This document shows, piece by piece, positions 3,493-18,601 of a DNA stretch of 64,000 nt. The notes under the pieces were generated by a model. The model had not been told where the DNA came from. It made no database searches and saw only the letters and a list, made by a program, of their open reading frames with translations. Both the position numbers and the translations under genes were made by a program. Numbering within the stretch: position 1 is the stretch's first letter; every line of letters starts with the position of its first letter. The stretch is taken from contig LJUY01000001.1 of the NCBI GenBank assembly GCA_001304015.1, positions 124,001 through 188,000 on the forward strand, in the 5' to 3' direction. This DNA is from a candidate division Zixibacteria bacterium SM23_81 (GTDB lineage: Bacteria > SM23-81).

Positions 3493-3561
3493 CAGAACCT
3501 AAAAATTGCCCTTGTAAATCATTGATAAATAAGGGCGAAAAGAGGCGATTTTTAGGTTCTG
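3493..3561. repeat. Inverted repeat in the gap between 3.4 and 3.86 kb
   Basis: The arms 3493-3510 (CAGAACCTAAAAATTGCC) and 3544-3561 (GGCGATTTTTAGGTTCTG) are complementary at 17 of 18 positions, with a 33-nt loop. There is no T-run at either end, so it is not a classical terminator. The rest of 3393-3863 holds nothing I recognise. Confidence 0.6.
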
Positions 3562-3863
3562 CATACTTTACCATGGAGAACTGAAAAATAAATTGTAAAG
3601 ATCGCACAACACCATGATTTCAAAGATAATAGCAATATTCTAGAAAACACACAAAATCAAATAAAATGGCCTCAGAATCCATCTCAGAGGGTCACGCGAG
3701 TAAATTGAAATAAAAAAGAGGCTATGAGAAACATAACCCCTAGAAGAGGCCGGATGTCAAAGGTTGGGTTCCAGAGGTGAACATAACACTTCTTCAGCTA
3801 TCTGAGCAGAGAAAGCCACCTCAAAGATTCGGCACCCGCCCTGATCAAACGGTCTTTGCTCGA

Positions 3864-5957
3864 TTATTCCCCATTGGCCAAGTTTATGTCGAATTCACCC
3901 ACTTTGTTGGATTCCGAGGACTTGTTGCCGGCTTCGTCCACAGCCTTGACGGAATAGAAGTAGTTGAAGAGCGTATCTCCAGCAGCGCCCACATCGGTGT
4001 ATGTGGTGTCCGTAATGCTGACAAGAGAATCTCCCAAAGAGATAGGTGCAGTGCTCCGATAGAGCACATATCTGTTTACACCCACTTTGTCGTAGGGCTC
4101 TGTCCACGAGAGGCATATATCACCCATAGTTCTCTTTGCTCCACTCACCAGAGCAACAGCCAAATCGTCGATGGCCTCCGGCGGCGTTGCGTCGGCGGCG
4201 ACGTGGAAGTTGAAGTTGGGCATGAAGGGTGGTCCCGGAGGCACCGAGTCCGCAGGTACTTTCTGATACTTGACCGGGTTCTCGGTCCAGGTCCCCTCCT
4301 GGGGAGAAGTCATGACCGCAGCACCAGCGTCTTTGTCCTCCACATAGATGATGTGCAGAGTGTCGTTGACTTCAGCGGCTAAGGAGGGATAGTCCTCATT
4401 CATGCAGCTACCCGGGGTCGCATTGGGGCTAGGGGTGTTGGTCAGGTTAGTGCCCTCAGACCAGTTCAGCCCCCCATCAGTGGACACCGAGCAGTAGATC
4501 TCTCCGTTAGCCCAGCCATGACTGGGGGTGACCCCCCCAGAGGTGTCGCCCTCGACGCATCTTTTATAGAGGCAGTATAGATAGCCGGTTGTTGGATCCT
4601 GTCCTAGGGAGGGCCTATCCACTGTGCTTCTACGGCGTCCTGCTCCCCTGTATGGGTCAGTATCCGGATCCCCCACATCGTACCAACCGTCGGCCACCAC
4701 GGTGAGGGTGTCGTGCTCCTCGCTCCAGTGCCAGATCACCGATGCGTCTAAGGTCTGTCTCACAACGGCATAGCTATCAGGACAGGCAGCTAGGCGGGCG
4801 TCGAACCAGAGACCGCGAGCGGTAAAAGCAATGTGTGCATAGTCGGTCTTATCGTACAGGAGACTCACATCGCAGTAAGCCCGAAGAGTGTCACCGTTGG
4901 CAAAAGTTGAGTCAGGCCAACGGGTCGTATCCGGCTCGATAAGATTAGTGATGTTTCGCTTGGCTGAGAAATCCCATGTGACTCCATTCTCCGACTCTAT
5001 CAGGAACACGTTGTTGTTCATCTCGGAGACCAGCTGGCCATTATAGGGTCCCAGGTTCGTGACGTCGAAGGCCGACTTGGCATACGCTATGCCCACTTTA
5101 TTTGAAACGGGCGAGGCTGCCACGTCCTGGGTGGCTGGCATGATGGTATCCACTTCCACAAAGGTAGTGTAATTAGATCCACCATCTTCTGATCGGGTAT
5201 AAAAGATGCGACAGGAATCTATAGCTACTGGCTCGCAGGAAACTACGTGTATATAATCCTGGGAGCAAACCGTCACCTTTGGCCAGATCAGCTCCCGATC
5301 AGGGGGGTTGGCGAGAGCGGTAGCATCAAAAATATTCATGCCCTCTATTTGTCCATAAGCCACCTGTGTATACGCGAAGTCTTCAACTGGACTCACGTTG
5401 TAGGCAACCACAGAATTACCTGTGCTGAAGTGGGAAAGGGTCGAATACCCGGAGCGATCAAGACACAAACAGATGCCACTCCCCAATGTGATACCATAAG
5501 AAGGATGGTAGTAATTATACCAAGCGTATCGGGGGTTAGTCTGGGCCTGAGGGCAGTTCATCCAACAAAAGTGCACCCCTCGGCTAGGGGTCAAAGATAC
5601 CATCTTGCCGATAGTGCCGTTATGCTGATAATCGTACCACGTGGTTCCCAAGGTATAGACCTGTCCTATCTGATTACCCTTAGTTGGCTGTCTTTCCTGA
5701 AAATAAGCTAGGCCACCACTGGGCCCAGGAAGTTTTGAAGGAGTTTTAATATAAACAGGAGGATGCGCTTCAAAATCGTATAAGATTGTTTGACCTATCG
5801 AAGGTGTGTCTTCGGAGTCATCTGTAGCGATGCTGTGGCCATGGTCGTAATTGCCTACTTCCAGGAATGTGATCCACACCAAATCAGCCTGATTCGCTAA
5901 CAGCGACGTCGATAGCTGAAACGTCAACAGCACCACTACAAAAGCGGTCGCTCTCAT
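3864..5957 (-). CDS. Secreted beta-propeller-like protein with a C-terminal fibronectin-type domain
   Basis: 697 residues from ATG 5957, chosen because GAGGT sits just upstream; an in-frame ATG 15 bases earlier lacks a good site. The signal peptide (MRATAFVVVLLTF...LLANQ) resembles that of the fibre gene at 2057. Residues about 30-570 contain recurring stretches such as TRSEDGGSNYTTF and CSVSTDGGLNWSEG, which look like BNR/sialidase-type blades (SxDGGxxW). Residues about 590-690 form a fibronectin type III-like domain (PPEAIDDLAV, LSWTEP, YVLYRS, VKAVDEAGN) ending GEFDINLANGE. The same terminal domain is found in the gene at the right edge. No sorting domain of FlgD type is present. Catalytic activity cannot be inferred. 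Confidence 0.8.
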   Translation of the reverse strand: MRATAFVVVLLTFQLSTSLLANQADLVWITFLEVGNYDHGHSIATDDSEDTPSIGQTILYDFEAHPPVYIKTPSKLPGPSGGLAYFQERQPTKGNQIGQVYTLGTTWYDYQHNGTIGKMVSLTPSRGVHFCWMNCPQAQTNPRYAWYNYYHPSYGITLGSGICLCLDRSGYSTLSHFSTGNSVVAYNVSPVEDFAYTQVAYGQIEGMNIFDATALANPPDRELIWPKVTVCSQDYIHVVSCEPVAIDSCRIFYTRSEDGGSNYTTFVEVDTIMPATQDVAASPVSNKVGIAYAKSAFDVTNLGPYNGQLVSEMNNNVFLIESENGVTWDFSAKRNITNLIEPDTTRWPDSTFANGDTLRAYCDVSLLYDKTDYAHIAFTARGLWFDARLAACPDSYAVVRQTLDASVIWHWSEEHDTLTVVADGWYDVGDPDTDPYRGAGRRRSTVDRPSLGQDPTTGYLYCLYKRCVEGDTSGGVTPSHGWANGEIYCSVSTDGGLNWSEGTNLTNTPSPNATPGSCMNEDYPSLAAEVNDTLHIIYVEDKDAGAAVMTSPQEGTWTENPVKYQKVPADSVPPGPPFMPNFNFHVAADATPPEAIDDLAVALVSGAKRTMGDICLSWTEPYDKVGVNRYVLYRSTAPISLGDSLVSITDTTYTDVGAAGDTLFNYFYSVKAVDEAGNKSSESNKVGEFDINLANGE

Positions 5958-6009
5958 GGTGTACCTCTTCAAATAGATTTAGTGCAAAGTTTTCTTAACC
6001 TACGTCTCC

Positions 6010-6038
6010 ATTTTACCATAACTGCTGTATCTTGTCAA
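6010..6038 (-). promoter_or_regulatory. Promoter of the secreted propeller gene
   Basis: Minus strand: TTGACA (6038-6033), 17-bp spacer, TAAAAT (6015-6010). The spacer and flanks resemble those of the promoter at 2154-2182. Confidence 0.75.
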
Positions 6039-6056
6039 GAAAAATCTCAATTATCA

Positions 6057-6308
6057 TCGCACTCTAAAAATCAAGACTATTCAAACAGGGTAAAGTCATA
6101 AAAACATCCTCCCCCACATCCTGGTACCCCTGCGGGGAGGGCAATTTTATGGTCAAACTGAATCCCAAAAAATCCGTGCTACGAATCTGCTATGGTTTTA
6201 TGTCCAAATATGACCATTTTTGTCCATTTATGTCCCTGGTGACAATCTCATTAAAGCCAAATAAAAAAGGGAGTTGCCTAATTTTCAATAACTTAGGCAA
6301 CCCCCTTT
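6057..6308 (-). repeat. Dispersed repeat unit B
   Basis: Has the same parts in the same order as unit A: hairpin (6305-6269, GGGGGTTGCCTAAG with complementary TTAGGCAACTCCC then a T-rich tract), 10-bp direct repeats (6237-6197), a CAGCAGGGGTACC-like GC block and the TTACCCTGTTTGAATAGT block, then promoter. Its upstream end abuts a truncated tRNA-Arg. Confidence 0.75.
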
Positions 6309-6312
6309 TAAG

Positions 6313-6354
6313 GGATTCGAAGTCCGACGCTCTATCCATCTGAACTACTGACCC
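6313..6354 (-). pseudogene. 5' half of a tRNA-Arg (UCG anticodon), cut in the anticodon stem
   Basis: From 6354 the minus strand reads an acceptor-like 5' strand (GGGTCAG), a D-arm (GTTCAGATGGATAGAGC) and the anticodon arm TCGGA-CTTCGAA-TCC with anticodon TCG. The remaining stem base, variable loop, T-arm and acceptor 3' strand are missing; the hairpin of repeat unit B begins a few bases later. It cannot give a functional tRNA. Confidence 0.7.
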
Positions 6355-6454
6355 TTCAGCGTTTCAGGACTTAGAACAATGTGCATGAGCTATCATAATC
6401 AAGACCACTACCCCCCTGCTGCCTTCCTAGGTGATCAACTTTCCGTTGTGAAAT

Positions 6455-6609
6455 CTAATCAAAATTTGCTTCCATTTTATGCCCAAATATGTCCCTTTTT
6501 GTCCATTTATGCCCCTCAATAGAATTTTGAGAACTCATAATAAAAAAGGGAGTTGCGCAAATCACAAAGACTTACACAACTCCCTTCTGGGCGATTAGGA
6601 ATCCCTTTC
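6455..6609 (-). repeat. Dispersed repeat unit C with tRNA anticodon-arm remnant
   Basis: Contains the terminator-like hairpin (6584-6548, GGGAGTTGTGTAAG type) and the 10-bp direct repeats (6515-6477), but no promoter block. Its upstream end, 6609-6593, reads GAAAGGGATTCCTAATC, the anticodon arm of tRNA-Arg (CCT) as in the longer remnant at 18389-18429. Confidence 0.65.
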
Positions 6610-6623
6610 TTTAAAAAAACGTT

Positions 6624-6666
6624 GGCCTAGGAACGATCGGTATCCAGTTTACCGATCCAATAGGTC
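6624..6666. repeat. Hairpin 3' of the 6698-7534 gene
   Basis: Outer arms GGCCTA (6624-6629) and TAGGTC (6661-6666) flank a perfect inner inverted repeat GATCGGTA (6635-6642) / TACCGATC (6650-6657). There is no T-run. By position it could be the decayed attC of the adjacent cassette, but it lacks the R boxes. Confidence 0.45.
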
Positions 6667-6697
6667 TTCAAGCGCTAATGAAATCCTTTCTTCACTA

Positions 6698-7534
6698 TTA
6701 TTTTTTGTAAACTGCGCTTTTAATTGTGTACCCATTTTTCCCAGCCAAGTTTAGTACGTAGATCTCCACCATGCGTGACATAAGGGCTTCAGTTCCTCGC
6801 TCCCCAATTTGAAAGATCATTGTCTCAGGACTAATACTGTTATTTGCGAAAGCCTCTATGGATATTAGCTCTCTCACAATCGGGGGGCGTCCCTCCAAAC
6901 TTACTCTCACACAGCTATGTGATTTGGGAGGAAGGGTTAGGGAGCAGCTTTTTTTGTTCAGGTAAGCAGTCGCAGAGACACTCATCGTAGAATCCGATGC
7001 GTTGTCGATTACAACAATGGATTCGATATTGCCCCCAAAGAAATCGCTGAATGTGATTTTAGCTTTCTCAAAAAAAGTTGTTTGAGTTGATGGATATAGA
7101 ATACCCTTTCGAATGGAGTTCTGATAGTATTCCGGAAGCAGTGGAGTGTTGAACGTTCTGTATCCAGAAGGTAGTGATGCATGAAAAGGCGTTGAGTTTG
7201 CATCAAGCAGGAAATGAGTGCTTTTCAAATGAAAGAGTGTATCACGCAATTCGTGGGTATGATTCAGATCAATGGATCTTGGAAGGATGAGGCCGTGTTC
7301 CTGAACATCAGAAATGAAGTGTGTAATTACGGTGGAATGTGTGTTCTCCGGATATGTTTCGGCAAATGACTTGTATGCCGGTATTGTGTGTTCTCTAAGT
7401 GCTGCGGCTAGGGCGTCTCTTTGCTCAATTTCCTTGGCTGTGGGGCCGAAGATTTCGATCAGAAGGAAAAACGTTCCAACGGCGAAAACGCCAACAAGCC
7501 AGAAGATAAGTTTCCTTATATTTCTGGAATTCAT
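6698..7534 (-). CDS. Membrane-anchored protein of unknown function
   Basis: 278 residues from ATG 7534, supported by GGAGAG six bases upstream; an earlier in-frame ATG (7738) lies inside the attC site and is unlikely. Residues about 6-28 (IRKLIFWLVGVFAVGTFFLLIEIFG, given here only as one membrane segment) suggest an N-terminal anchor with the rest outside the cytoplasm. The remainder has no motif I recognise: a charged segment near 35-60, and a beta-rich half with DNASDSTMSVSATAYLN and SHSCVRVSLEG. It lies between two attC-related elements, and is probably the last gene of the cassette array. No function assigned. Confidence 0.65.
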   Translation of the reverse strand: MNSRNIRKLIFWLVGVFAVGTFFLLIEIFGPTAKEIEQRDALAAALREHTIPAYKSFAETYPENTHSTVITHFISDVQEHGLILPRSIDLNHTHELRDTLFHLKSTHFLLDANSTPFHASLPSGYRTFNTPLLPEYYQNSIRKGILYPSTQTTFFEKAKITFSDFFGGNIESIVVIDNASDSTMSVSATAYLNKKSCSLTLPPKSHSCVRVSLEGRPPIVRELISIEAFANNSISPETMIFQIGERGTEALMSRMVEIYVLNLAGKNGYTIKSAVYKK

Positions 7535-7659
7535 ATTTCTCTCCTGCATTATTGAGTCAAAGTTTAGTAATTCCTGACATCGAGTACGAGTGTGATTCCC
7601 CATGTTAGCTAACAAGTCGGGAGAACTTCGTAACAAGCGAGATCCATGAACTCGGCTTT

Positions 7660-7757
7660 GCCTAACGGTTGGGACATCAGTTGTGGCGAGTTGGAGCATG
7701 TTTTGACTTGTATTAAGACCTTTTTTAAACGCCGTCAACTGAATGCGCTTGTTATAC
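7660..7757 (-). other. attC: Integron attC site a
   Basis: 98 bp, in cassette orientation on the minus strand. It opens with GTATAAC (7757-7751, R''), followed by GCATTCAGTTGACGGCG (L''), a long non-conserved centre, a complementary CAACTGATG stretch (L') and closes with GTTAGGC (7666-7660), a perfect GTTRRRY R' box. It lies 20 bp after the stop of the HEAT-repeat gene. Confidence 0.85.
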
Positions 7758-7776
7758 GCTTGTGGTCATTCTTTAA

Positions 7777-8301
7777 TTATTTTTTTCTAGAGTTCTTTAT
7801 TGCCTTTATTGCTGATTGTATATGATAGATATCATCATCAGTAGAGATATAACCAGCAATAGATTTTGTTTGCACGTATTTGTATACTATACCTTGTTTC
7901 ACCAATTTATTCTTTACTTTTGCAAGTATTTTTTCTAAGACAGGTAGAGCTATTGGATCACCTATCGCCTTCAGAGTATTTATTGCGAGAGTAACGTACT
8001 TGCTATAACTATGAACGCCTCTAGATACTTTTGCACCTTCAACTATATTTATCAAACATTCAGTTGCTGGTTTGAGTAATGTTAGCAATTTTTCTTTGTC
8101 GATGTCTTCGCTCTCGTTCATGAGCACAATTATTCCTGTAGTAGCCTCCTCATAAACTTCCTTCCTATCATCCTTTAATGCCTTCGATAGGATTGGCACT
8201 GCTTGAATACCCAAGCCAGCTAACTCTAGAGCGGCTAAATATCTTTCATTAGCAGAGTTGCTTCTTAGCTTTCTCTCAAGCTCTATGATTTTTTTCGCCA
8301 T
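7777..8301 (-). CDS. Small HEAT-repeat protein (integron cassette gene)
   Basis: 174 residues; ATG 8301 follows AAAGGAGAAAAACA. Contains HEAT-like helical repeats (RYLAALELAGLGIQAVPILSKAL; KEVYEEATTGIIVLM; a later LKAIGDPIALPVLEKILAKV). There is no signal peptide, so it is probably cytoplasmic and a protein-binding scaffold. The gene is much more A+T-rich than its neighbours, as expected of a cassette of foreign origin. attC site a follows directly, attC site b lies upstream. Partner unknown. Confidence 0.75.
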   Translation of the reverse strand: MAKKIIELERKLRSNSANERYLAALELAGLGIQAVPILSKALKDDRKEVYEEATTGIIVLMNESEDIDKEKLLTLLKPATECLINIVEGAKVSRGVHSYSKYVTLAINTLKAIGDPIALPVLEKILAKVKNKLVKQGIVYKYVQTKSIAGYISTDDDIYHIQSAIKAIKNSRKK

Positions 8302-8676
8302 TGTTTTTCTCCTTTCGTTTTAATACCAAATTATTGTCTATTTATATTTTTGCTGGTATAAGAAAAAGATTGGGGGAGGACGTAAAAAATATTCTCTTAA
8401 GCTATATATATTGAAAAGTTATATAGATTTCCCAACAGATCTATGTCATAACACATCTCTATTGATCTCGTGCAAAAAAAACTGGTTATTTGAAATCTGC
8501 TTACTTTGTGCAAATTTTGAATTAACCTATAATATATTACTAGAAATGAGATTCATGTTTGTAACATTCTGTGAGCTTTTCTAAAAACCTTCTTCTGTAT
8601 ACTAGATCTTTTTTGAATTACTTTTAAGAAAATTCTAAATATTCAAATCTTCACTTTGAGTTATACTAAGAATTAC
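8302..8676. other. A+T-rich cassette leader without a recognisable gene
   Basis: 375 bp between attC b and the HEAT-repeat gene. It is strongly A+T-rich and contains poly-A/T stretches but no open frame of note. It may carry the promoter of the HEAT gene; I see no clear -35/-10 pair. Confidence 0.5.
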
Positions 8677-8776
8677 GTATAACGGCTGGGGCATCAGTTG
8701 CGGCGGGGCGGAGCTTGTTTTGACTTGATAAAAAACCTTGTTTTAAACCGCCGTCAACTGAATGCCCTTGATATTC
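8677..8776 (-). other. attC: Integron attC site b
   Basis: About 100 bp. Minus strand: degenerate R'' (GAATATC), GGGCATTCAGTTGACGGCGG (L''), centre with AAAACAAGGTTTTTTATC, CCGCCGCAACTGATGC (L') and GTTATAC (8683-8677, R'). Its L'' and L' arms are complementary and nearly the same as in sites a and d. It begins just after the stop of the 8778-9506 gene. Confidence 0.82.
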
Positions 8777-8777
8777 A

Positions 8778-9506
8778 TTAACCGCCTGCTCCGTGTCGCC
8801 TTAAGCTACACACGAATGCCTCCGCCACCCGAGCAGCAACTATCCCACTGATCAACGCTACGTGCTCCAAGTGAATGAACGGACCGGTTGAATCGAGGCC
8901 ACCTGTGTGATACAGGAACGCTACAGCAACCACCGATACGCCAGCGAGGTATACCAGACGACTAATACCCAAAGGGCTTGTAGGCCAAAGCAGCAGGAAA
9001 TGGACTACGTAGAATATCAAGACAACATGTAGTCCTCCAGGAACTGCCCAGTAAATTCTGTCGAGGCTTGTGAACACTGAACGCAGAGCGTAGGTTGGGG
9101 GAAGACAGGCCTCGCATATGTACGTATTGATAAGCGGACCTAATTGCAGTGCAAGATAGTGGTGGAAGATGTAGTATAGTGGCCATGTGAGATACGCAAT
9201 GGCCAAAGCCCATGCTGACCGGCGATAGAGCCCAATTGCGATGGCCATCCACAAGCAGGAAAATAGTATGATACGAAGAAGAGTACCGCTATCCGCGGTT
9301 AATCTGCTTGCGAAGAGCCAAACGTAATAAACAGTCCAGCCAAGATAGGAAAGGGCTGCTGCCAAGGGGGTACACCAGACATCTCTCGCTCGCGGAAGCC
9401 TATGTGGGCTTTGAGCTGGGGGCTGGGGAGTCTCCTTCGTGTCATTGACCACTGGCACTAGTGGTCGCGATTCAAACGGTGTATCAGCAGGCTTCACATC
9501 CTGCAT
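8778..9506 (-). CDS. Polytopic membrane protein (integron cassette gene)
   Basis: 242 residues; ATG 9506 is preceded by AGGAGG at eight bases. A proline-rich N-terminal tail of about 45 residues is followed by several hydrophobic segments (about 48-68, 75-95, 100-118, 152-175, 180-200 and 212-232), so roughly six membrane spans. No motif identifies a transporter or enzyme. Flanked by attC b (downstream) and attC c (upstream). Integral membrane protein of unknown role. Confidence 0.7.
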   Translation of the reverse strand: MQDVKPADTPFESRPLVPVVNDTKETPQPPAQSPHRLPRARDVWCTPLAAALSYLGWTVYYVWLFASRLTADSGTLLRIILFSCLWMAIAIGLYRRSAWALAIAYLTWPLYYIFHHYLALQLGPLINTYICEACLPPTYALRSVFTSLDRIYWAVPGGLHVVLIFYVVHFLLLWPTSPLGISRLVYLAGVSVVAVAFLYHTGGLDSTGPFIHLEHVALISGIVAARVAEAFVCSLRRHGAGG

Positions 9507-9799
9507 TGCTGAGCCTCCTATACTCTAGCTACAGAATCGTAGCGCAGCGGCTGTTAAAAAAAGGAAGCACTGCATCATTTAAGCTTGAACCTCGATATCC
9601 TAGCGACCACTGACGTGGATTCTGGCGACGAAGCCATTGATGACCTCAGCGAAATGATTATTGAGATCATTTGCTAGAAGCTCCAATTTAATAATACTGA
9701 TATATGTACTATGTTTCCTAACGCTTCGACCGCTATTAGACGGACATAAGGTTGACTGACTGTGCTGGGTGTTATTCGTCGCTAGCGATCCACACAAGC
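9507..9799. other. Cassette leader, no convincing gene
   Basis: 293 bp between attC c and the membrane-protein gene. A 65-codon minus-strand frame (9797-9600) opens two bases from attC c, but it has no hydrophobic core, known motif or good ribosome site, so I do not call it a gene. TCCTAAC at 9716-9722 resembles an R box, but no complementary L arms accompany it. Confidence 0.5.
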
Positions 9800-9898
9800 G
9801 CCTAACGGCAGGCGCATCAGTTGCGGCGGGGCGGACGGTGTCTTGACCTGAATGAATCCCTTCGTATGACCACTTTCAGCTGAATGACCTTGTGTGGG
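9800..9898 (-). other. attC: Integron attC site c
   Basis: About 99 bp. Minus strand: decayed R'' (CCACACA), AAGGTCATTCAGCTGAAAG (L'' side), a central stretch, CCGCCCCGCCGCAACTGATGC (L', one base longer than quoted limits avoided elsewhere) and GTTAGGC (9806-9800), a perfect R' box. The L' arm is the same as in site b; the L'' side has drifted. About 200 bp separate it from the stop of the 10099-11022 gene. Confidence 0.75.
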
Positions 9899-10098
9899 AC
9901 AGCAACACCTCACACCAACCAGTGAGAAACTAAGTCAGGCTGTGTAGTCTTGATAGAAACCAAAGTCTACTACCCCACCGGCTTGATGGTGAACTATTTT
10001 CTCTTGACTTAGAGGGCTTCATAAGGCTTAGGCGGCCAGGATCAATAGAATCACTAGAATCACTAGATCGCCATTGCCGTGCTTTTTGAAGCATTACT

Positions 10099-11022
10099 TC
10101 AATCTTTCTTGGTCTCGATCCACTTTGCATCTTTGAACACATAGTATGTGTCATCGCGCATTGCGCGAGCGCCCGTGCTAAACACCACACGGAATTGGTC
10201 CTTGTCCTTCGACAGAGACGTACAGAACCCCTTAAACTGAATCTCAGGGAATTTGCCCGTCTCTTTGATCCCAGCTAATTTCATTGGGTCAACCCAAACA
10301 TCCAGAAACTCGGGAACGAGCAGTTTCGTCTCCTTATCCACTTTCCCTCTGCATTCATTTCTTGGAAAGTGGAAGAAGGGATTCTCCAGCTTCTCCCTTA
10401 CAGGTATGCCATATGTGTCCGCAATTTGCTGTGCGTGCCGTTCTAGGTCCGCTCGCACCTCTGGTGCTGCATATAATCCACCGGTGCCTGCTGGAAGATA
10501 CTCGACGGCTAGGTTGTCTGATCTTTGCGCATTTGGACCTAAATATCCGGTCGTGCCAGAGTTGTAGACGCTAACCGCGAAAAGGAGATAGTCGTTGAGA
10601 AGCTGGTGGATATCGACAGGCTGCACGCTTGATGTTTTCGAGTCGATCCGTTGAGCGGTATCTCCAGTCGATGGTAGCCTCTTGAACGACTCCACCTCAG
10701 TGTGCCCTTCTAGGTACACAATCTCCACGAGGTCGCCTTTCTGGAATTCGTCAAAATTCTTAAGACGCGCTGCGAAATCTGCACTAGATATTGAAATCTC
10801 CAAGTATTCACTGACGACACTGAAATAATGGTACACGTCACAGATCTTGAGAGTATCTCCTCCGTCCAGCTTAACGACAATGTCCCCTACTTCAGGCGCT
10901 ATCGACTCAATAACTCCGGTAACCGTTTTGCGAGCCGCTCTGTCCTCGGCGATCGGAGTTGACGGTCTCAGGCAGACCATCGCACACGTCAAAAGAACGA
11001 GTAGCGTCGCTTTTGTTCTCAT
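10099..11022 (-). CDS. Secreted protein of unknown function (integron cassette gene)
   Basis: 307 residues; ATG 11022 follows GAGAGGAGGCCAGA. Signal peptide of about 25 residues (TKATLLVLLTCAMVCLRPS). Residues about 33-110 form a beta-rich segment (TVTGVIESIAPEVGDIVVKL; GDLVEIVYLEGHTEVESF) like small barrel domains that bind nothing specific. The rest includes an FPRNECRGKVDKETKLLVPEF stretch whose two halves I cannot match to a family, and a C-terminal strand ending DTYYVFKDAKWIETKKD. Probably periplasmic. It lies between attC d and attC c. Confidence 0.65.
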   Translation of the reverse strand: MRTKATLLVLLTCAMVCLRPSTPIAEDRAARKTVTGVIESIAPEVGDIVVKLDGGDTLKICDVYHYFSVVSEYLEISISSADFAARLKNFDEFQKGDLVEIVYLEGHTEVESFKRLPSTGDTAQRIDSKTSSVQPVDIHQLLNDYLLFAVSVYNSGTTGYLGPNAQRSDNLAVEYLPAGTGGLYAAPEVRADLERHAQQIADTYGIPVREKLENPFFHFPRNECRGKVDKETKLLVPEFLDVWVDPMKLAGIKETGKFPEIQFKGFCTSLSKDKDQFRVVFSTGARAMRDDTYYVFKDAKWIETKKD

Positions 11023-11088
11023 TCTGGCCTCCTCTCCCAGTGAGTTCAGTTCTCGATTGCGATTGTCGTGAATGGAGGTGCATCTGCC

Positions 11089-11185
11089 ACCTAACGGCTG
11101 GGCATCAGTTGAGGCGAGGTGGCGTTTGTATTGACCTGTAGTAAAACCTTGTTTTGATCGACGTCAACTGAATGCGCGGATTAGC
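11089..11185 (-). other. attC: Integron attC site d
   Basis: 97 bp. Minus strand: GCTAATC (11185-11179, decayed R''), GCGCATTCAGTTGACGTCG (L''), centre AAAACAAGGTTTTACTAC, CGCCTCAACTGATGCCC (L') and GTTAGGT (11095-11089), a perfect R' box. It starts 16 bp after the stop of the 11202-11951 gene. Confidence 0.85.
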
Positions 11186-11201
11186 TGGCCCAGCGCACTA
11201 T

Positions 11202-11951
11202 TCAGCGCTTTCCATACCAGCCATCAATCCTTCTCTCAAGCGAAACACCGTGAAGAAGCACCCTAGCTCCAGCATAGTGTGCAGTCAGGACATTCACGTA
11301 TTCGCCCTCAGTTTGGTCGCACCGTCCGTAGATCTGAGCTGAGTGAATAGCCTTGGTCGCAGTACCAAACCATCGCCGGCCGTCATCGAAGTAACTTGAC
11401 CCAAGCATCAGACACAGTCTGTGGCCCTTTGCTGCATCAAGGTGAATAAGTGTCAGGGATTGCCCAAAGTCCACCGCTTCGAATGAATTCTCAACAAAAC
11501 GGTCTCTTGGAGGATGGCTCTCGCAAAGGGCGGAGACGATAACATCACCTTCAGTGAGACATGGCCCATAGCCCACCACCGTGCTACACGAGGAGTCAGT
11601 GTAGATATAGTCCCAAGAGCCAAACCGCGCTTTCTTCTCGACGATTCCAACTTTGGACACAAAACCCCCCCCAGATACATTGATACTGGACTGCGCTGGA
11701 ATAGGTGTTCTACCGTTGAGAGTAAGAAATCCTGAATATTGTACCGATTCGTTTTGCGAGATCGAATGGCTCAATGTGTCGGATTGAGTTAAAGTAGACG
11801 CTATCTGGTCGTTTTCTCCCGTGCGCGGTGGACATTCCATCTTTATGAGACCGCCCTTTGCCTGTTCTTCCGATGGTCCGCTTCCGCAGCCAACGTTTGC
11901 GACCGACCACGCAGCCAGGAGTATGACCAAAATCATTTTTTTGACTAACAT
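11202..11951 (-). CDS. Lipoprotein of unknown function (integron cassette gene)
   Basis: 249 residues from ATG 11951; GGGGG sits eight bases upstream, whereas the ATG six bases earlier would be too close to it. Lipoprotein signal with lipobox SVANVGC (Cys about 22). The mature protein has a serine/threonine-rich stretch near 45-85, three further cysteines around CSTVVGYGPC, and a C-terminal segment with RRIDGWYGKR. No family recognised. Flanked by attC d and attC e; its two flanks and own orientation fit a one-gene cassette. Confidence 0.7.
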   Translation of the reverse strand: MLVKKMILVILLAAWSVANVGCGSGPSEEQAKGGLIKMECPPRTGENDQIASTLTQSDTLSHSISQNESVQYSGFLTLNGRTPIPAQSSINVSGGGFVSKVGIVEKKARFGSWDYIYTDSSCSTVVGYGPCLTEGDVIVSALCESHPPRDRFVENSFEAVDFGQSLTLIHLDAAKGHRLCLMLGSSYFDDGRRWFGTATKAIHSAQIYGRCDQTEGEYVNVLTAHYAGARVLLHGVSLERRIDGWYGKR

Positions 11952-11986
11952 TTGCATTACCCCCTTTTTCGATGCATATCTTCGCT

Positions 11987-12079
11987 AGCTAACGCTTAGC
12001 GCATCAGCTACGGTGGTGCTGTGTGTATTTTTACGCGTAAAATCTCTCCTTCGCCCTCAGCGGTCTGCATAGGCTTGGA
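11987..12079 (-). other. attC: Integron attC site e (degenerate)
   Basis: About 93 bp between the stop of the ankyrin gene and the lipoprotein gene. Minus strand ends with CCGTAGCTGATGCGC then TAAGC and GTTAGCT (11993-11987), an R'-like box with one mismatch. The other arm (TATGCAGACCGCTGAGG) is only partly complementary. Confidence 0.55.
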
Positions 12080-12087
12080 GAACGATG

Positions 12088-13029
12088 CTACATCCCTGCC
12101 CCAGCCTTCTTCAACATTTCGATAATGTCTGGATCTGTACTTAGCTTAAGGGCGTCGTTCCCGCTCTTGTCCTTTAGATTAACGTCAGCTCCCTTCTCAA
12201 GCAGTAATCTAACGACCGGGGCGTGTCCATGATTTGCAGCTAACATTAGGGGTGTGATGCTGTCTTTAATTGTTCGCGGATCAATGTAAGCTCCCTTCTT
12301 AAGCAGTAGTCTAACGACCTGGGGGTGCCCACGACTTGCAGCTAACATTAGAGGTGTGACGCCATCTTCATATGTACCCAGATTCACATCTGCTCCTTTG
12401 TCAAGAAGAGATTCGACAGTTTTAACGTAGCCACCTACCGTAGCACCGAACAGCGCCGTTGCACCTTCACTCTTGGTTTTAGCGTCGACGTTAGCGCCGA
12501 TGGCCAGCAAATAGCGAGTAATTTCGACGTACCCAAAATCTGACGCTTGGTGGAGGGGGGTTGAGTTATCCTCGTTGCCAAGGTTGACTCTGGCGCCCTT
12601 CTCAACAAGGTACTGCACGAACTCAAGCTGTCCATCGTAGGGGGAAGAATCACTCTCAGACACTAGTGGAGGCGGTGTCTCCGCTTTCGCCGTGGTTGAG
12701 AAAGGTTGCATTAGCATAGTAATAGTGCCGGCTCTACAGGCATACATCAGCGGCGTGGCTCCGGTTTTGCCTGGCGCGTTCACATCAGCCCCTTTGTCAA
12801 CGAGGTACTTGGCTATTTCGAAATGACCACTCCATATAGCCGTGTGCAATGGTGTCTTTTGATCTGTATCCTTCGCATCTACATCTACGCCAGTAGCTAT
12901 GAGCTGTTTTACCTTGTCTAAGTCACCAGCCTTTGCAGCTTCGTGGAGAGACAACCCACGTGCTGTACTAATAGAGATAACAGATATAGTGACCACTAGC
13001 AAGATACTGAGACTGAGGGTGTATTTCAT
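12088..13029 (-). CDS. Secreted ankyrin-repeat protein
   Basis: 313 residues from ATG 13029, which follows AAAGGAGGTGGCAAT; the longer frame lacks a site. Signal peptide (MKYTLSLSILLVVTISVIS). About seven ankyrin repeats follow, each with the TPLH/TPLM..A...GH...V..LL.KGADVN pattern (for example GQLEFVQYLVEKGARVN, GHPQVVRLLLKKGAYID). One repeat is interrupted by a Pro/Thr-rich insert near residues 100-135. Exported ankyrin proteins usually bind proteins in the periplasm or outside; no partner is seen. It is followed by attC e, so it may be a cassette gene. No clear attC was found upstream of it. Confidence 0.85.
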   Translation of the reverse strand: MKYTLSLSILLVVTISVISISTARGLSLHEAAKAGDLDKVKQLIATGVDVDAKDTDQKTPLHTAIWSGHFEIAKYLVDKGADVNAPGKTGATPLMYACRAGTITMLMQPFSTTAKAETPPPLVSESDSSPYDGQLEFVQYLVEKGARVNLGNEDNSTPLHQASDFGYVEITRYLLAIGANVDAKTKSEGATALFGATVGGYVKTVESLLDKGADVNLGTYEDGVTPLMLAASRGHPQVVRLLLKKGAYIDPRTIKDSITPLMLAANHGHAPVVRLLLEKGADVNLKDKSGNDALKLSTDPDIIEMLKKAGAGM

Positions 13030-13164
13030 ATTGCCACCTCCTTTTGGTTTCTGGAATCGCGCTAGTGTGCGAAGTTCTGGGTGAAGCCGACAAAAAGATG
13101 CCATAGAACAGGTGGATTCCCTTCACACTCTCCTGCAAACCGTTGTTCTTAGCTTGTTAAAGAG

Positions 13165-14001
13165 TCAATCCTGCTTGCTAATACTTTCCAAGGCTTTGGT
13201 CGCTTCCTGACTTATGTCTTCGTCTGTATCCTTAGCACCCTCGCGTAATGCTATCACGGCAGGATTTCCGATTTCACCGAGGGCCTCCCACAGGTTACCG
13301 GCTTGGTGAAAGCGCACGGGTGTCTCACTCCCAAACATGCTGATCCAGGAACTCGTGTATGGATTCTTAGGAAGCAACTGTTCATTAATTAAAGTTTTGA
13401 TGATTCTTTCCGTAGCAATGCCATTCTTGGCAAATTCCTTAAGAAGATGAGCGATTCCCATGTCACATACTCTGGACACGCCTTGCCAGTCGGAACCCCC
13501 GAAATTCAGACCACCTTCAAAGGCAAACGCAGGCACTACTTCTTTTCCATCGGCTAACAATTTTCCATCAAGCTTTAGAACGGGCACGGAAAGTACTATT
13601 GCGCCGCTGGTAACTTCTATCGATGTTCTCGGGTCAGTAAGAATCTTCCTTTCGAGTCCAAATCGAAGCGACATGTTCACGCTCAATGCATACTCCCGAG
13701 CGTCGGCTGATGGTGGAAATCCCACCTGCCTCAGCAACGATGCAAGCCTATCGCGGGTATAAGACTCTATTTTTGCATTGGTTACCGTGCTGTCATTTTG
13801 TGCAATCTTCAGAAGTGTCTCGTCGGCAGGCCGATTGGCGAGAGAAACGGTGATAGCGATATTCTTTGTGCGTGAAACTGCTGATTCCTCTTGAATTGCC
13901 GATTCCTCTTGAACTGATGAGTCATTTTGCTTACTGCATCCAACCAAGATCAAAACCGCGATGACCATTAGGACGGGGATAGTGATTCTACACCTTTTCA
14001 T
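13165..14001 (-). CDS. Lipoprotein with a C-terminal HEAT-like repeat
   Basis: 278 residues; ATG 14001 follows AAAGGAGACATCACT. Lipobox LILVGC (Cys about 22), then two direct repeats of EESAIQ/EESAVS. The middle contains beta-strand-rich sequence with two lipoprotein-type GG segments (FEGGLNFGGSDWQG), and the last 45 residues form a HEAT-like helix pair (LWEALGEIGNPAVIALREGAKDTDE...). No family recognised. The 80-bp leader is shared with the small lipoprotein gene at 2603-2944, and the gene has its own promoter at 14114-14142. Confidence 0.7.
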   Translation of the reverse strand: MKRCRITIPVLMVIAVLILVGCSKQNDSSVQEESAIQEESAVSRTKNIAITVSLANRPADETLLKIAQNDSTVTNAKIESYTRDRLASLLRQVGFPPSADAREYALSVNMSLRFGLERKILTDPRTSIEVTSGAIVLSVPVLKLDGKLLADGKEVVPAFAFEGGLNFGGSDWQGVSRVCDMGIAHLLKEFAKNGIATERIIKTLINEQLLPKNPYTSSWISMFGSETPVRFHQAGNLWEALGEIGNPAVIALREGAKDTDEDISQEATKALESISKQD

Positions 14002-14081
14002 AGTGATGTCTCCTTTCTGTCGAGCTTATAACTAGATGGTTTTCTTCGCTAAAACTTCTGACTGCCAATTGTCCAGATAAC
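14002..14081 (-). repeat. Shared lipoprotein leader, copy 2
   Basis: Near-identical to 2945-3023. Immediately upstream on the minus strand comes GCATAACAATTTGCGTG then TTATCTGG, so the shared part starts exactly after a G that precedes TT. This fits a cassette junction, though no full attC stands here. Confidence 0.7.
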
Positions 14082-14113
14082 ACGCAAATTGTTATGCGTT
14101 AATTTTCAAATCC

Positions 14114-14142
14114 ATTTTGACATAAGCGCTCTTTCATGTCAA
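14114..14142 (-). promoter_or_regulatory. Promoter of the 13165-14001 lipoprotein gene
   Basis: Minus strand: TTGACA (14142-14137), 17-bp spacer, CAAAAT (14119-14114). The spacer contains GCTTATG as in the promoter at 2154-2182. Confidence 0.65.
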
Positions 14143-14159
14143 GATAAATCTGAATTTTG

Positions 14160-14250
14160 CACCCCCAACTGTTAAAACAATCCAGACTATGCAAAGAGAG
14201 CATGATTTAAAAAAGCATTCCCCCGCTTAGTATCCTTGCCAGGGAGTTAA
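14160..14250 (-). repeat. Diverged partial copy of the promoter-upstream repeat
   Basis: Shows a decayed form of the block TTTGCATAGTCTGGATTGTT and a GC-rich CCTGGCAAGG stretch at the positions where units A and B have their blocks. No 10-bp repeats or hairpin. The rest of 14143-14334 holds nothing else I recognise. Confidence 0.45.
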
Positions 14251-14334
14251 AGTTTTTTAGTTAAACTTGTATCTACTAAATAATATGTTCCTATACCTCT
14301 CAGATCGGGAACGGCTTCCGAAACAAAGGATTTC

Positions 14335-15120
14335 TCAAAATGAACGCACCAGTGCTATTTTACTGTGACCTGCTGGATTAATATCGAAGCGAATTCCCAG
14401 TTTATTTTGTTGTTCAAGCATATACCCCTTACGAGCCATTTCTTCAGGAGTCTTGTGTAAAAAACTGTAGATTGCGAGTGCTCCATATGCGAGCCCATAA
14501 TAATCATTCCATGCACTATCAACTTCCTTTGGTACAGGTAGCCTCCATACATTACCCCAATGATCAACAATAACGTCAATATCAACTATCATTTCTTTCA
14601 TAGGCCGAAGAGTTAAATACAACAATGACGTCGCACCAAAAATAGTCCCGATTATTAACCTCTGTTTACGAGCTTTCTGAGCAAGAGAAAGCAAAGCTCC
14701 CTTGCTAACACGATCCCTCTCTTCCTGATCTGTTATAGTACGTACCTTTTCAAGCTCTTTTTCTGCAGGACATGGTATGAGCATTGTCAATGCTGCAACA
14801 CCACCCAAAAGCCCTCCTGCTAGTATAGCTCCCGCAGAGCCTTCTCCATCACCTCCTGCTTCATCACTTGAAGTGGTGCCCCAAATAATCATTCCTGCTC
14901 CTATCATCAATCCCGAAGTCCCAGCAATTATTTTATTCCTATGAGACTTTTGGGCAGCTTGTTCAAGATACCTCTCTGCCACAGAAACGGTAGTGTCTGG
15001 AGCCATACTTCTCTCATTGTTCAGCGTACCCTGATAGCCATTCTGATTAGGTACATCGGCTAGAACTTCCACCGATAGTAGAACCAGCGATAGCATCACC
15101 ACAAAAGTGGTCTCTCGCAT
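14335..15120 (-). CDS. Secreted or membrane protein with a glycine-rich membrane hairpin
   Basis: 261 residues; ATG 15120 follows AGGAGGCGCGAT. The first 45 residues (signal peptide ending VEVLADVP, then GYQGTLNNE and DTTVS) closely resemble the N-terminus of the fibre protein at 2057, but everything after is unrelated: a Lys/Arg-rich stretch, a glycine-rich hydrophobic segment (IIAGTSGLMIGAGMIIWG, about 65-82), a second (AGAILAGGLLGGVAALTML, about 96-114), a third near 155-170, and a C-terminal LGIRFDINPAGHSKIALVRSF typical of a DUF5683-like tail. It looks like a promoter plus signal-peptide module joined to another gene body. Function unknown. Confidence 0.7.
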   Translation of the reverse strand: MRETTFVVMLSLVLLSVEVLADVPNQNGYQGTLNNERSMAPDTTVSVAERYLEQAAQKSHRNKIIAGTSGLMIGAGMIIWGTTSSDEAGGDGEGSAGAILAGGLLGGVAALTMLIPCPAEKELEKVRTITDQEERDRVSKGALLSLAQKARKQRLIIGTIFGATSLLYLTLRPMKEMIVDIDVIVDHWGNVWRLPVPKEVDSAWNDYYGLAYGALAIYSFLHKTPEEMARKGYMLEQQNKLGIRFDINPAGHSKIALVRSF

Positions 15121-15222
15121 ATCGCGCCTCCTGAAAGATGGCGAATTAACAAGGAAAAGAAAAGTGACTGCATGATCCTTTACCTACTTATGATTATAAA
15201 TACATGCTTAATTTTCAAAATC

Positions 15223-15251
15223 ATCTTATCATAACTGCTATTCTTTGTCAA
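15223..15251 (-). promoter_or_regulatory. Promoter of the 14335-15120 gene
   Basis: Minus strand: TTGACA (15251-15246), 17-bp spacer with GCAGTTATGA, TAAGAT (15228-15223). Same family as the promoters at 2154 and 6010. Confidence 0.7.
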
Positions 15252-15593
15252 GGATAATCTGAATTAACATCCAAATTTCGATATCTCACTTATCTTCGTT
15301 TCGTTCGCTCCTCTTTCCCATTACATCAGTCGATGAAAGAAGTCATTAGTTCCCGAAAGTTTTCAATGAGATGTTTTTATAGGTATAAAAAAGCCCACGT
15401 CCGAAATAGGATCTTGGACCTCAAACGCGCTGATCTGCATTACGAGCTTTTGTTAAGAACCTCAATAAAAACGAACAATTGACCCTCTGCTCAATTTTGT
15501 ATTTGATGAGGACCTTCTCTCATACATGCAATAGATACAAAAAAAACCTCACTCACTCGCAGCGAGGGTTGATGAGTGCCTTTGATACGACCT

Positions 15594-15767
15594 CAAAATT
15601 TGTTTCGAATTTGTTTCAATTTTATGGTCAAATATGGTCAATTTTGGTAATTTATGGTGCGATGCTTAATCTGTTGAACAGACAATAAAAAGAGGGAGTT
15701 GCAGGAACTTCAAGAACTTACACAACCCCCTCATTTTGGATTTCAAGGTCTGACCCTCCGACCCTGA
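15594..15767 (-). repeat. Dispersed repeat unit D
   Basis: Contains the terminator-like hairpin (15732-15693) and four 10-bp repeats (TTGACCATAA type, 15660-15624), with the linker GTCTGTTCAACAGATTAAGC identical to that of unit E. The upstream edge on the minus strand (15767-15740) reads GGGTCAGACCTTGAAATCC, which might be a decayed anticodon arm. The rest of 15252-16122 has no gene: two weak hairpins near 15370 and 15545 and the inverted repeat listed separately. Confidence 0.65.
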
Positions 15768-15904
15768 AAATAGTTATGCTTCTTATTACAATTACTTACC
15801 GGTCACCCTAAAACTTCCCAACACCCAAACTTCATATTTGTTTTTGCCAGATTTCAAAATCTTTGTTTGTTCCCAATGTCTGCGCAACCGCCAAGAATGC
15901 TCTA

Positions 15905-16061
15905 GGCTGGCGGCGAGTGGATATGGCATTGGGATTATTCATTTTACCCCTAGTTATAATTGATGTTTATCCGGAAAAATATATTAAGCTAAATATAACT
16001 TCCCTTTTATTTTTAAGTCTATTTTAGAGCTGGAACAGGAGATTGATATTTGCCGCCAGCC
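15905..16061. repeat. Long-distance inverted repeat
   Basis: GGCTGGCGGC (15905-15914) and GCCGCCAGCC (16052-16061) are a perfect 10-bp inverted pair 137 bp apart. The A+T-rich centre is unlike the arms. It might be a large attC-type hairpin, but I find no matching R boxes. Confidence 0.5.
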
Positions 16062-16122
16062 CGAATTTGGATATTCTTTTTGCAGGATAACAAGAACCTT
16101 TTGATGAAACCAGGCCACTCGC

Positions 16123-17961
16123 TTAGGTTTTAAGTTGACCTTCGCGGCACTCCCTCATGACACACGGAACACCAAGTATAGATAGAACTGTATGGATATT
16201 AGCAGCGGCGATGTATTGAGAATACTGTACTAAATTCTTTCTTTCTAAATCACCGTGAAAGAATTTGATTTCATAACTTGCTCCAGTATTGCGATGTAAC
16301 TGAAGTTTGATTTCTGTCACATAGTCTACCATGCTAGTTACCGTTCGGTCTACCGTACGAGACGACCTTGCAGAATCAATCGCTGCACCTATCACAGCCC
16401 CTGCTACTCCCCCAACCATCGCACCTCCCAACGTGTATTTGCCCTTGTCTCGAGGATTTGCTCGCTGTCGTACAATCCGTTCTTCCCTCACTCCTTTTGT
16501 AGATAAAAGCAAGGCACATTCTGTGATTTCTTGACAGGGAACTATGACGCCTTCGAGTCGATCCGAAGTTTCGCCTTGCTCGAGGATGATAACGTTCCTT
16601 TTACTTGTATTAACGCCGAGAGCATGACGCGAGTTGGCGGCATAGGCGTATGAGGGATCAGCTCCGAATTGCGATCGAAGCACTGCTATTAGTTCGCGTT
16701 TACCTCTCTTACGCGCAAGATAAAAAAGGATTAGACTCATTAAGTAGGAAAGGAACGCAACTCCAGCGGCGACGACGTAAGGTATCTCGGTACCAAGGTA
16801 CAGAAGGCCTAGAAACATTGCTAAGGCTGCTAAACCGAAAAACAGAAATTTTTTTGCGAGTTTCTTTATCACATCGCTCTTTCGGATTAATCGACCGTCA
16901 GATCTCTCCACAGGTTGGACACTTGCGAGTTTTTGTAACTGTTTGATACGTTTGCTTGCAGCGGAGCGGACGGGGTTGCGGATATCGCCCTTCGCAGTGC
17001 GACCAAGGAAAGTCTCATCTAGCAGTTTTTCCACAGCGAGTATTCGAACATTTTCGTCTGAACTCGTTAAAACAATGTCACGCAGGGCGTCTTGGTCAAA
17101 GATCCTCGCGATTGCAGTAAGTCTAACATTTATATCGGCGTCGGTCTTAGCAACCTCGGCCAGTGTTGATTCTTCCAACAGCTTCTCGACCACCATCTTG
17201 CGTATAGTGATGCACTTCTCTGACTTGGCGAGGCGCGCGAGGACCGCCTGATCCTGTAGGTTCCGGACCGCCGTGGTACGAATACCTTCGTGACTATCGG
17301 TCTCGGCAATGGTGGCAAGTGCGGATTGGATTGACAACCGATTGACAGCGGCTTGGCGGACACTATTGTCGTTATCACGCATCGCGATCTCAGCCAGGGC
17401 TGCTTGGTCCGTGAGCCTCTCAACAGCAGCTCTTCGAATGCTCGGTATGTGATCGGTCTGCGCAACCTTGTAAAGCGCCATCGGATCTGACAGCTTCTCC
17501 GTTGCGGTTCTTCGCACAGAATGATCCCCGTCGGTCGTTGCGACTCTAGCGAGCGTCGCCTGGTCACGAATCTTAGCCACAGCAGCTGCCCGGACGGATT
17601 CACTGCGGTCCGTTAATACGACTTGGATCAGGACGGCGTTGTCTGTCAGTCTCTCGACGGCAGAAATGCGAACAGCATCATTGTCGTCGGTTGTGGCAGC
17701 AAAAGCCAGGATAGCCTGGTCATTAACTCTCCGGATAGCCGCCAGTCGCACTTCAGAATCGCTGTCGGTCTTAGCGATTGCCGATAACAGGCTCTCGCGC
17801 GTTAGCTTTTTCACGGCGATTCTGCGGATGATCCAATTGGTATCCGTGGTGGCAATTTGCTCTAGTATATTTTGGTCAGAGAGGTCCTCCACTGCGGGTT
17901 TGCGGACCTCCAAATCAGCGCTCTGCCATTTCGGGTTAGACGAATCTTTTCTCGCACGCAT
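16123..17961 (-). CDS. Protein of 13 HEAT-like 26-residue repeats, two membrane spans and a glycine-zipper domain
   Basis: 612 residues from ATG 17961, since GGAGGT lies seven bases upstream; the ATG 15 bases earlier overlaps that site. Residues about 10-345 are 13 tandem repeats of 26 residues with the pattern DxxxxVRxAAVxxLxDQAxLAxIAxT. Two hydrophobic segments follow (about 372-392 and 397-417), then a soluble domain with GVIVPCQEITECALLL, and near residue 520 a glycine zipper (LGGAMVGGVAGAVIGAAID). There is no signal peptide, so the repeats probably face the cytoplasm. The combination is unusual; I know no named family with it. The repeats most likely bind protein. It has its own promoter at 18093-18121. 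Confidence 0.75.
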   Translation of the reverse strand: MRARKDSSNPKWQSADLEVRKPAVEDLSDQNILEQIATTDTNWIIRRIAVKKLTRESLLSAIAKTDSDSEVRLAAIRRVNDQAILAFAATTDDNDAVRISAVERLTDNAVLIQVVLTDRSESVRAAAVAKIRDQATLARVATTDGDHSVRRTATEKLSDPMALYKVAQTDHIPSIRRAAVERLTDQAALAEIAMRDNDNSVRQAAVNRLSIQSALATIAETDSHEGIRTTAVRNLQDQAVLARLAKSEKCITIRKMVVEKLLEESTLAEVAKTDADINVRLTAIARIFDQDALRDIVLTSSDENVRILAVEKLLDETFLGRTAKGDIRNPVRSAASKRIKQLQKLASVQPVERSDGRLIRKSDVIKKLAKKFLFFGLAALAMFLGLLYLGTEIPYVVAAGVAFLSYLMSLILFYLARKRGKRELIAVLRSQFGADPSYAYAANSRHALGVNTSKRNVIILEQGETSDRLEGVIVPCQEITECALLLSTKGVREERIVRQRANPRDKGKYTLGGAMVGGVAGAVIGAAIDSARSSRTVDRTVTSMVDYVTEIKLQLHRNTGASYEIKFFHGDLERKNLVQYSQYIAAANIHTVLSILGVPCVMRECREGQLKT

Positions 17962-18092
17962 AGATTTGACCTCCATCTTTCACTAATAGCGTTTAGTTGC
18001 TGCCGTGAGTATATGCCATGACGGCACGCGACCGTCTTGTAGTCGACGACTTGACAATTAAGATTGCGACAGAGTCGCCACATTACGAAGTC

Positions 18093-18121
18093 ATGATATC
18101 ATAAATCTAAGAAATTGTCAA
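18093..18121 (-). promoter_or_regulatory. Promoter of the HEAT/glycine-zipper gene
   Basis: Minus strand: TTGACA (18121-18116), 17-bp spacer, TATCAT (18098-18093). It lies about 130 bp upstream of ATG 17961. Confidence 0.65.
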
Positions 18122-18240
18122 CAAGAAATGCGCTTAGAAAAACCAAAGAATACAAAAACGCTCATTACTTCAAAAGGAGGGCACTTAATAACATAACATT
18201 TTGTCTTAATGTTGATTATGTTTATAGCAACGGACTAAAA

Positions 18241-18386
18241 ATCCGTTTTTTGCTTCCAATTTGTTTCCAAATCATGGTCAAATATGGTCAATTTTGGTAA
18301 TTTATCGTGCGATGCTTAATCTGTTGAACAGACAATAAAAAGAGGGAGTTGCATAAATCACAAAGACTTACGTAACTCCCCTTTAG
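18241..18386 (-). repeat. Dispersed repeat unit E
   Basis: Minus strand order: hairpin GGGGAGTTACGTAAG ... TTATGCAACTCCC (18380-18344) followed by TCTTTTTATTG, then the linker GTCTGTTCAACAGATTAAGC, then 10-bp direct repeats (18303-18268, TTGACCATAT type) and TTTGGAAACAAATTGG. Nearly identical to unit D. Its upstream end abuts a truncated tRNA-Arg. Confidence 0.75.
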
Positions 18387-18388
18387 AC

Positions 18389-18429
18389 GATTAGGAATCC
18401 CTTGCTCTATCCGCCTGAGCTACGGGGGC
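18389..18429 (-). pseudogene. 5' half of a tRNA-Arg (CCU anticodon), cut in the anticodon stem
   Basis: From 18429 the minus strand reads acceptor strand GCCCCCG, TA, D-arm GCTCAGGCGGATAGAGC, A, and anticodon arm AGGGA-TTCCTAA-TC with anticodon CCT. Pairing then fails (expected TCCCT, found TCGTC), and repeat unit E begins. The 3' half is absent. The well-conserved 41 nt suggest a recent break. Confidence 0.8.
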
Positions 18430-18601
18430 ACAAAGAGTTATAGGGTTTTGTTATTAATTTGTCAGTTAAATATTGCCAAAAACATGGGTAAAATCAAGTC
18501 TTTTTTTCCTCCTCTCCCCCATTGTGTTGAAGAGGCAATATATCGAGAGGACTTCGCGGAGTAGGTTCCTTTTGCTCTATGTATTCAGGTCACCATCGAA
18601 C

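Follow-up and report, generated by a model that had tools for sequence, protein, structure and literature searches.

What does it mean when one short sequence, a terminator-like hairpin followed by direct repeats, occurs five times along a piece of bacterial DNA and several of its copies meet a truncated tRNA gene? We addressed this question in a window of 64,000 nucleotides (nt) from the candidate division Zixibacteria bacterium SM23_81 (GCA_001304015.1, contig LJUY01000001.1, positions 124,001 to 188,000; C26:124001-188000 in our labelling), where five such units, here called A to E, lie on the minus strand. The genome, labelled G000, has a size of 3.07 Mb in 99 contigs and is 92.6% complete. 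The data are genome assemblies. The original prediction took the units as the ends of past integrations and the partial tRNA genes as broken by the loss of their 3' halves. Our analysis agrees with the first part and leads to a different answer for the second: the units appear to be the tRNA-distal ends of integrative elements whose integrase would recombine in the anticodon arm and insert the element on the 5' side of the tRNA. We give this reading a probability of roughly 0.87.

Results

Unit E provides the clearest case. Its displaced 5' half of tRNA-Arg(CCT) (41 nt, 18389..18429, minus strand) stops on the 3' side of the anticodon stem, and all its bases agree with the start of an intact tRNA-Arg(CCT) gene at C26:119502-119576 (100% identity over the first 41 nt; E = 3.5e-18). 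This intact gene, one of those that the original prediction had proposed to look for, has the same orientation as the displaced half and is separated from it by 22.9 kb; it lies outside the window, about 4.4 kb to its left. The duplication also includes the promoter region ahead of the half (102 bp, 18430..18531, minus strand), which has a counterpart at the intact gene with 87/102 identical positions in an ungapped alignment. Both this duplicated flank and the 2 x 11-bp pair described below go beyond the original prediction. Altogether, unit E and the intact gene share a gapless stretch of 143 bp, whose limit falls within the anticodon stem. On the minus strand, the order is the displaced promoter and 5' half (unit E), the element end, the 22.9-kb island, a second promoter and 5' half, the anticodon, and the host 3' half. 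The island occupies positions 1..18389 of the window and starts outside it, at about C26:119536.

Since the host 3' half is still in place 22.9 kb away, in a gene that is intact with an element-borne 5' half, the element lies on the 5' side of the tRNA. These sequences show that the host tRNA-Arg(CCT) is not broken: the element provided a new 5' half with its promoter, and the host 5' half was moved to the far end. Thus, the loss of 3' halves was rejected for unit E.

An uninterrupted site was found in a genome from a different genus of the same family (G001:C77), with the order TPR gene, tRNA-Arg(CCT), apt, acylphosphatase, a further gene, and tRNA-Pro(CGG). G000 keeps this order: the TPR gene comes after the intact tRNA, and apt, acylphosphatase, and tRNA-Pro are located at window positions 25020-26424. 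Between tRNA-Arg and apt, G000 presents the 22.9-kb island and then another 6.6 kb, with genes at 18602-24950 and without a marked end, which may be an older insertion in G000 or a loss in G001. This additional segment, from unit E to apt, includes a CCA tRNA nucleotidyltransferase-like gene that is not at the same place in G001.

The five units with their hairpin and four 10-bp repeats exist as predicted, with correct coordinates and repeats. They share one orientation and represent copies of a single element end, and their alignment spans from the hairpin to the repeat block. The order on the minus strand is the recombination core, the hairpin with a T-run, about 30 nt, the four 10-bp direct repeats, and, just beyond them, a 2 x 11-bp pair, of which a single copy is visible in unit C. 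A strong TTGACA promoter follows units A, B, D, and E. All the features listed below are on the minus strand.

In unit E, the terminator-like hairpin and T-run (18344..18382; 80-nt fold z = -4.6) come directly after the half tRNA. They are followed by the four 10-bp repeats (18270..18309), aligned with those of the other units, and by the 2 x 11-bp repeat (18250..18269), a candidate integrase arm-type site that matches an integrase-gene pair described below at 15/20 positions (2/500 shuffles as good). The promoter behind the terminator is TTGACA-17-TATCAT (18093..18121; 11/12 consensus). Unit D (15600..15731) is 87% identical to unit E and consists of the 2 x 11-bp pair (15600-15619), the four 10-bp repeats (15620-15659), and the hairpin (15694-15731). 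Its arm pair is also 15/20 identical to the integrase side (1/500 shuffles), and the promoter behind it is TTGACA-17-TAAGAT (15223..15251; 10/12 consensus).

Unit B adjoins a 42-nt 5' half of tRNA-Arg(TCG) (6313..6354). By alignment and folding, its parts (6174..6309) are the 2 x 11-bp pair (6174-6194), the four 10-bp repeats (6196-6235), and the hairpin (6265-6309), with the promoter TTGACA-17-TAAAAT behind (6010..6038; 11/12 consensus). Unit C, spaced 279 bp from unit B, has the anticodon arm of tRNA-Arg(CCT) only (6591..6607; 15-17 nt, of which 15 nt match exactly), next to a terminator hairpin (6544-6588; z = -6.4, 20 pairs in the terminator scan) and the four 10-bp repeats (6476-6515), together at 6476..6588. 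Finally, unit A (2327..2468; 79% identical to unit B) contains the four 10-bp repeats (2340-2379) and a hairpin (about 2410-2451), followed by the promoter TTGACA-17-TAAAAT (2154..2182; 11/12 consensus). The sequence therefore agrees with the predicted positions of units B and E at 42- and 41-nt tRNA-Arg 5' halves (TCG and CCT, respectively) and of unit C at an anticodon arm.

Absence of the repeat beyond the window, which would have spoken against the original prediction, was not what we found: the unit is also present on contigs C79 and C33. At C79:102256, it adjoins a 36-nt 5' half of tRNA-Lys(TTT) that is identical to the intact gene on C24, and at C33:2806 it is found with the Lys anticodon arm only. 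Hairpin-only relatives of the unit are located on C71 and C79. The joints with tRNA-Arg and tRNA-Lys support the predicted past integrations by one tRNA-targeting element family with the crossover in the anticodon arm. We searched the unit in 145 relatives and found none outside this genome, so that relatives at the DNA level are lacking.

A whole tyrosine integrase, P0001, is encoded at C26:21298-22368; 8 nt separate its end from tRNA-Arg(TCT), which follows it on that strand. The catalytic residues R200, K225, H286, R289, and Y321 are invariant in our alignment A1; at the further H/W position, P0001 has W and the other six sequences have H. The 3' end of the P0001 gene carries TGTAGCAAATCTGAAGCAAA, and the far ends at units D and E, C79, and C33 carry TGAAACAAATTCGAAACAAA or near variants, with 15/20 identical positions at 116-120 nt from the half tRNA. 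For these four ends, the arm match to the P0001 side was equalled by 0-3/500 shuffles. The match of units B and C to the P0001 repeat pair was not significant. Because the arm pairs match in D, E, C79, and C33, and not in B and C, a P0001-like integrase is the best candidate for those four ends, and units A-C may belong to a sister element.

The original prediction proposed to look for an integrase flanked by the unit sequence. No integrase of the family was found in the window island. The island's own integrase would be missing or act in trans; P0001 has matching arm repeats. A Pfam integrase match at window positions 3093-3299 was considered as the integrase of the element and rejected, since it is a decayed integron integrase. 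Likewise, we rejected G001:C124:14586 as the uninterrupted site of the TCT element, because that locus is a tRNA-Trp.

The four 10-bp repeats, first proposed as arm sites, are probably not the main ones. We downgraded them because the adjacent 2 x 11-bp pair matches the integrase side (15/20 in D and E), at a distance that is kept in other phyla.

To place P0001 among its relatives, we scanned one genome per species, which retrieved 80 related integrase loci; with the loci found earlier, the tree comprised 81. In 30 of these 81 loci, the tRNA is co-oriented directly behind the integrase, in 25 it is convergent (the classical 3' side), and 26 have no tRNA. Thus, 30/55 of the relatives with an adjacent tRNA are co-oriented. 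The gap between integrase and tRNA in the co-oriented group goes from -98 to +128 nt (median about 12); since this range reaches negative values, the integrase open reading frame (ORF) runs into the tRNA gene in eight cases. The 5'-side mode is clustered in the tree and does not form one clade (15 changes, at least 5 forced).

Five complete 5'-side elements with both ends, belonging to several phyla, were recovered: G045:C14 at Ser (12.7 kb), G091:C8 at Ser (12.5 kb), L130 at Gln (4.3 kb; Omnitrophota), L176 at Arg(CCT) (11.0 kb; Elusimicrobia), and G191:C52 at Met (23.5 kb; Omnitrophota). They all present an intact tRNA, a displaced 5' half 4-23 kb upstream, and an integrase gene inside the island whose end adjoins or enters the 5' end of the tRNA. 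The shared part of the tRNA ends at tRNA position 38-44 in the five of them. As expected, the convergent loci carry displaced 3' halves. For the Arg(CCT) half at G045:C2, no second copy was found within 50 kb.

Repeat pairs of 11 bp at the 3' end of the integrase gene were detected in 17/25 co-oriented loci vs. 5% of shuffles. In 6/6 lineages, the pair on the integrase side is found again near the far end, with 116-130 nt between it and the half tRNA, and the match beats nearly all shuffles (the G091 pair was assigned by manual check). Each of the five complete elements has its own sequence for this pair. This suggests that the 11-bp pairs behave as cognate arm-type sites should, and we consider them candidate sites.

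We next scored a hairpin beside the half tRNA when its fold z was below -3 (80-nt fold) and it stood directly behind the displaced half. It was present behind the displaced 5' half in 4/6 lineages vs. 0/8 displaced 3' halves (Fisher p = 0.015; small sample), with z below -3 in L130, G045, G091, and the tested G000 units.

Several loci of the family presented other arrangements. At L128:961-1059, the integrase ORF reads through the whole tRNA-Arg(ACG), with its stop 24 nt behind. Three loci (L117:1141-4174, L123:1406-3157, and L127:1081-1394) have a co-oriented integrase on the 5' side of the tRNA and a second tRNA 3' copy 0.2-3 kb downstream, as if a small integrase-less element were on the other side; their contigs all start close to the integrase. 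In Aminicenantes, L221:4373-19214 has an integrase of the family at the far end of a 3'-side element, beside the displaced 3' half and not beside the intact tRNA-Arg(CCT). Finally, in the G091 element (L099:3425-5713) the integrase has a small HTH_17 protein as its neighbour (L099:3425-3721), and an AAA_25 (RepA-like) protein is encoded as well; from these two genes, the element may replicate as a circle.

The window island also contains integron remains. An integron integrase (TIGR02249, E = 1.4e-13) is represented on the minus strand by its C-terminal part, at 3093-3299. Four attC-like sites, also on the minus strand and ending in GTTAGGC or similar, lie between small genes at 7660-7760, 8677-8780, 9800-9905, and 11088-11190, and an attI-like repeat is found at 2962-3029 and 14019-14086. 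The integron integrase and the cassettes have the same direction.

Discussion

We propose the following mechanism for these elements. As the sequences show, the attachment site of the element carries a complete tRNA 5' half; after integration, the tRNA is whole, with the element 5' half and the host 3' half, and the host 5' half is displaced to the far end. In the related elements, the integrase gene ends beside the 5' end of the tRNA or within it, and its 3' end holds an element-specific 11-bp pair that appears again about 120 nt inside the far end. These pairs may serve as integrase arm-type sites. The hairpin would act as a terminator: since the half tRNA and its promoter are followed by it in both the integrated and the circular forms, transcription would stop before the cargo, which may be read from its own promoter behind the arm sites.

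The four 10-bp repeats could bind an accessory or excision factor, or serve as extra arm sites. Some structural relatives of winged-helix excision factors sit on DNA in a head-to-tail arrangement in which neighbouring molecules are one turn apart (PMC11963761); by analogy, these factors would be a plausible partner of the repeats. Where the gap is of a few nt, the tRNA behind the integrase is probably expressed from the integrase promoter or from one inside that gene.

The window itself would represent a tandem array of ends. Units B and C are 279 bp apart, a tRNA half is missing from units A and D, and the island retains no integrase of the family; the five far ends in one island therefore suggest successive integrations at one tRNA, followed by decay.

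Some observations weigh against the 5'-side integration proposed here. Within the window, units A and D lack a recognisable tRNA half and unit C has an anticodon arm only. The intact tRNA-Arg(TCG) that the original prediction also proposed to look for, as a partner of the half at unit B, was not found among the tRNAs of this 92.6%-complete genome, which leaves the origin of that half unexplained. No integrase of the family was found beside tRNA-Arg(CCT), and the window island holds only the decayed integron integrase. For the P0001 element, the far end was not found (its contig starts 22 kb upstream), and the Arg(TCT) half was not found a second time. The set of four 10-bp repeats was found in this genome only, and the displaced 5' half is not followed by a hairpin in L176 or G191. 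Moreover, neither excision nor a circle was observed in the assemblies.

Among the alternatives, the units could mainly serve the regulation of a gene array, e.g., the decayed integron of this region, as modules made of a terminator, operator repeats, and a promoter, with incidental tRNA pieces. The consensus promoters after units A, B, D, and E and the integron traces in the same island would fit. We regard this as very unlikely, because the unit is also found on C79 and C33 beside a tRNA-Lys core, the same order is seen at element ends in unrelated phyla, and the attC-like sites are other sequences at other positions. A regulatory function would nevertheless be compatible with recombination at these ends. 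The elements could also have inserted on the 3' side, with later deletion of the tRNA 3' halves leaving broken genes, and indeed only 5' halves without a following 3' half are seen at the units. This is hardly tenable when the 3' half stands in the intact gene at a distance of 22.9 kb, followed by neighbours that are conserved, and when five other genomes agree in the geometry of the 5' half and have their integrase on the 5' side. A chance or homologous segmental duplication of the 143-bp tRNA-Arg(CCT) piece, without site-specific recombination, would suit an island with no intact integrase beside the tRNA and a duplicated flank only 85% identical, but it is scarcely credible, since the duplication stops in the anticodon stem, one end sequence meets three different tRNAs at that point, and integrase-linked elements elsewhere have the same geometry and arm repeats.

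The 5'-side integration that we favour is not a new kind of event, since 159/3919 islands in the Islander database carry a 5' tRNA gene fragment (PMC4383910). Those islands also have an intact tRNA at one end, a displaced 5' fragment upstream, and a tyrosine integrase. An intact tRNA with a same-orientation 5' fragment upstream was found here for unit E (C26:119502-119576) and in five other genomes, and the window island is a decayed case of this Islander type. However, such islands are a rare minority in the database, whereas 30/55 in this one family are on the 5' side, and here the far end is described with a terminator and an arm pair. What is new is how wide the bacterial family is, its mixed modes, the hairpin going with the 5' side, and the five-end array.

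In pTN3-like archaeal integrases, the restored tRNA is expressed from the integrase promoter (PMC8371274), and the short integrase-to-tRNA gap suggests, by analogy, the same expression here. Those integrases are archaeal and suicidal, and their gene is split at integration, whereas the family described here is bacterial and its gene is whole: ORF splitting was not seen, and the ORFs are whole beside the tRNA. For the classical side, ICEKp1 shares the chemistry and the target class. Its integration moves the terminator away from the tRNA, and transcription from the tRNA promoter then enters the integrase gene, with attenuation by stem-loops (PMC13023037). It does so on the 3' side, unlike our elements, where the tRNA promoter is displaced to the far end and the hairpin is directly behind the half tRNA. 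Tycheposons, in the passage of PMC10872708 that cites them, carry cargo, encode a tyrosine recombinase, and are bordered by a tRNA. A different solution from that of this family is seen in phages that do not restore the tRNA and bring a spare tRNA along (PMC10865867).

Conclusions

At the practical level, an island finder that accepts only islands with an intact integrase would overlook decayed arrays like the one in this window. At the biological level, most tRNA islands rebuild the 3' end and do not touch the tRNA promoter, whereas here the element takes over the promoter side of the host tRNA. This raises the question of how tRNA expression is kept up and how the genes of the element are shielded. 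As a tentative and rather doubtful extension, the family could have switched repeatedly to the 5' side of the tRNA, with the host tRNA in an integrase-tRNA operon and a co-selected far-end terminator that would insulate the cargo from the displaced tRNA promoter; each integration would then also create a short transcription unit, made of the tRNA promoter, the tRNA 5' half, and the hairpin, from which a stable small RNA could arise. One integrase family holds both modes and, therefore, the switch and its linked features are directly comparable.

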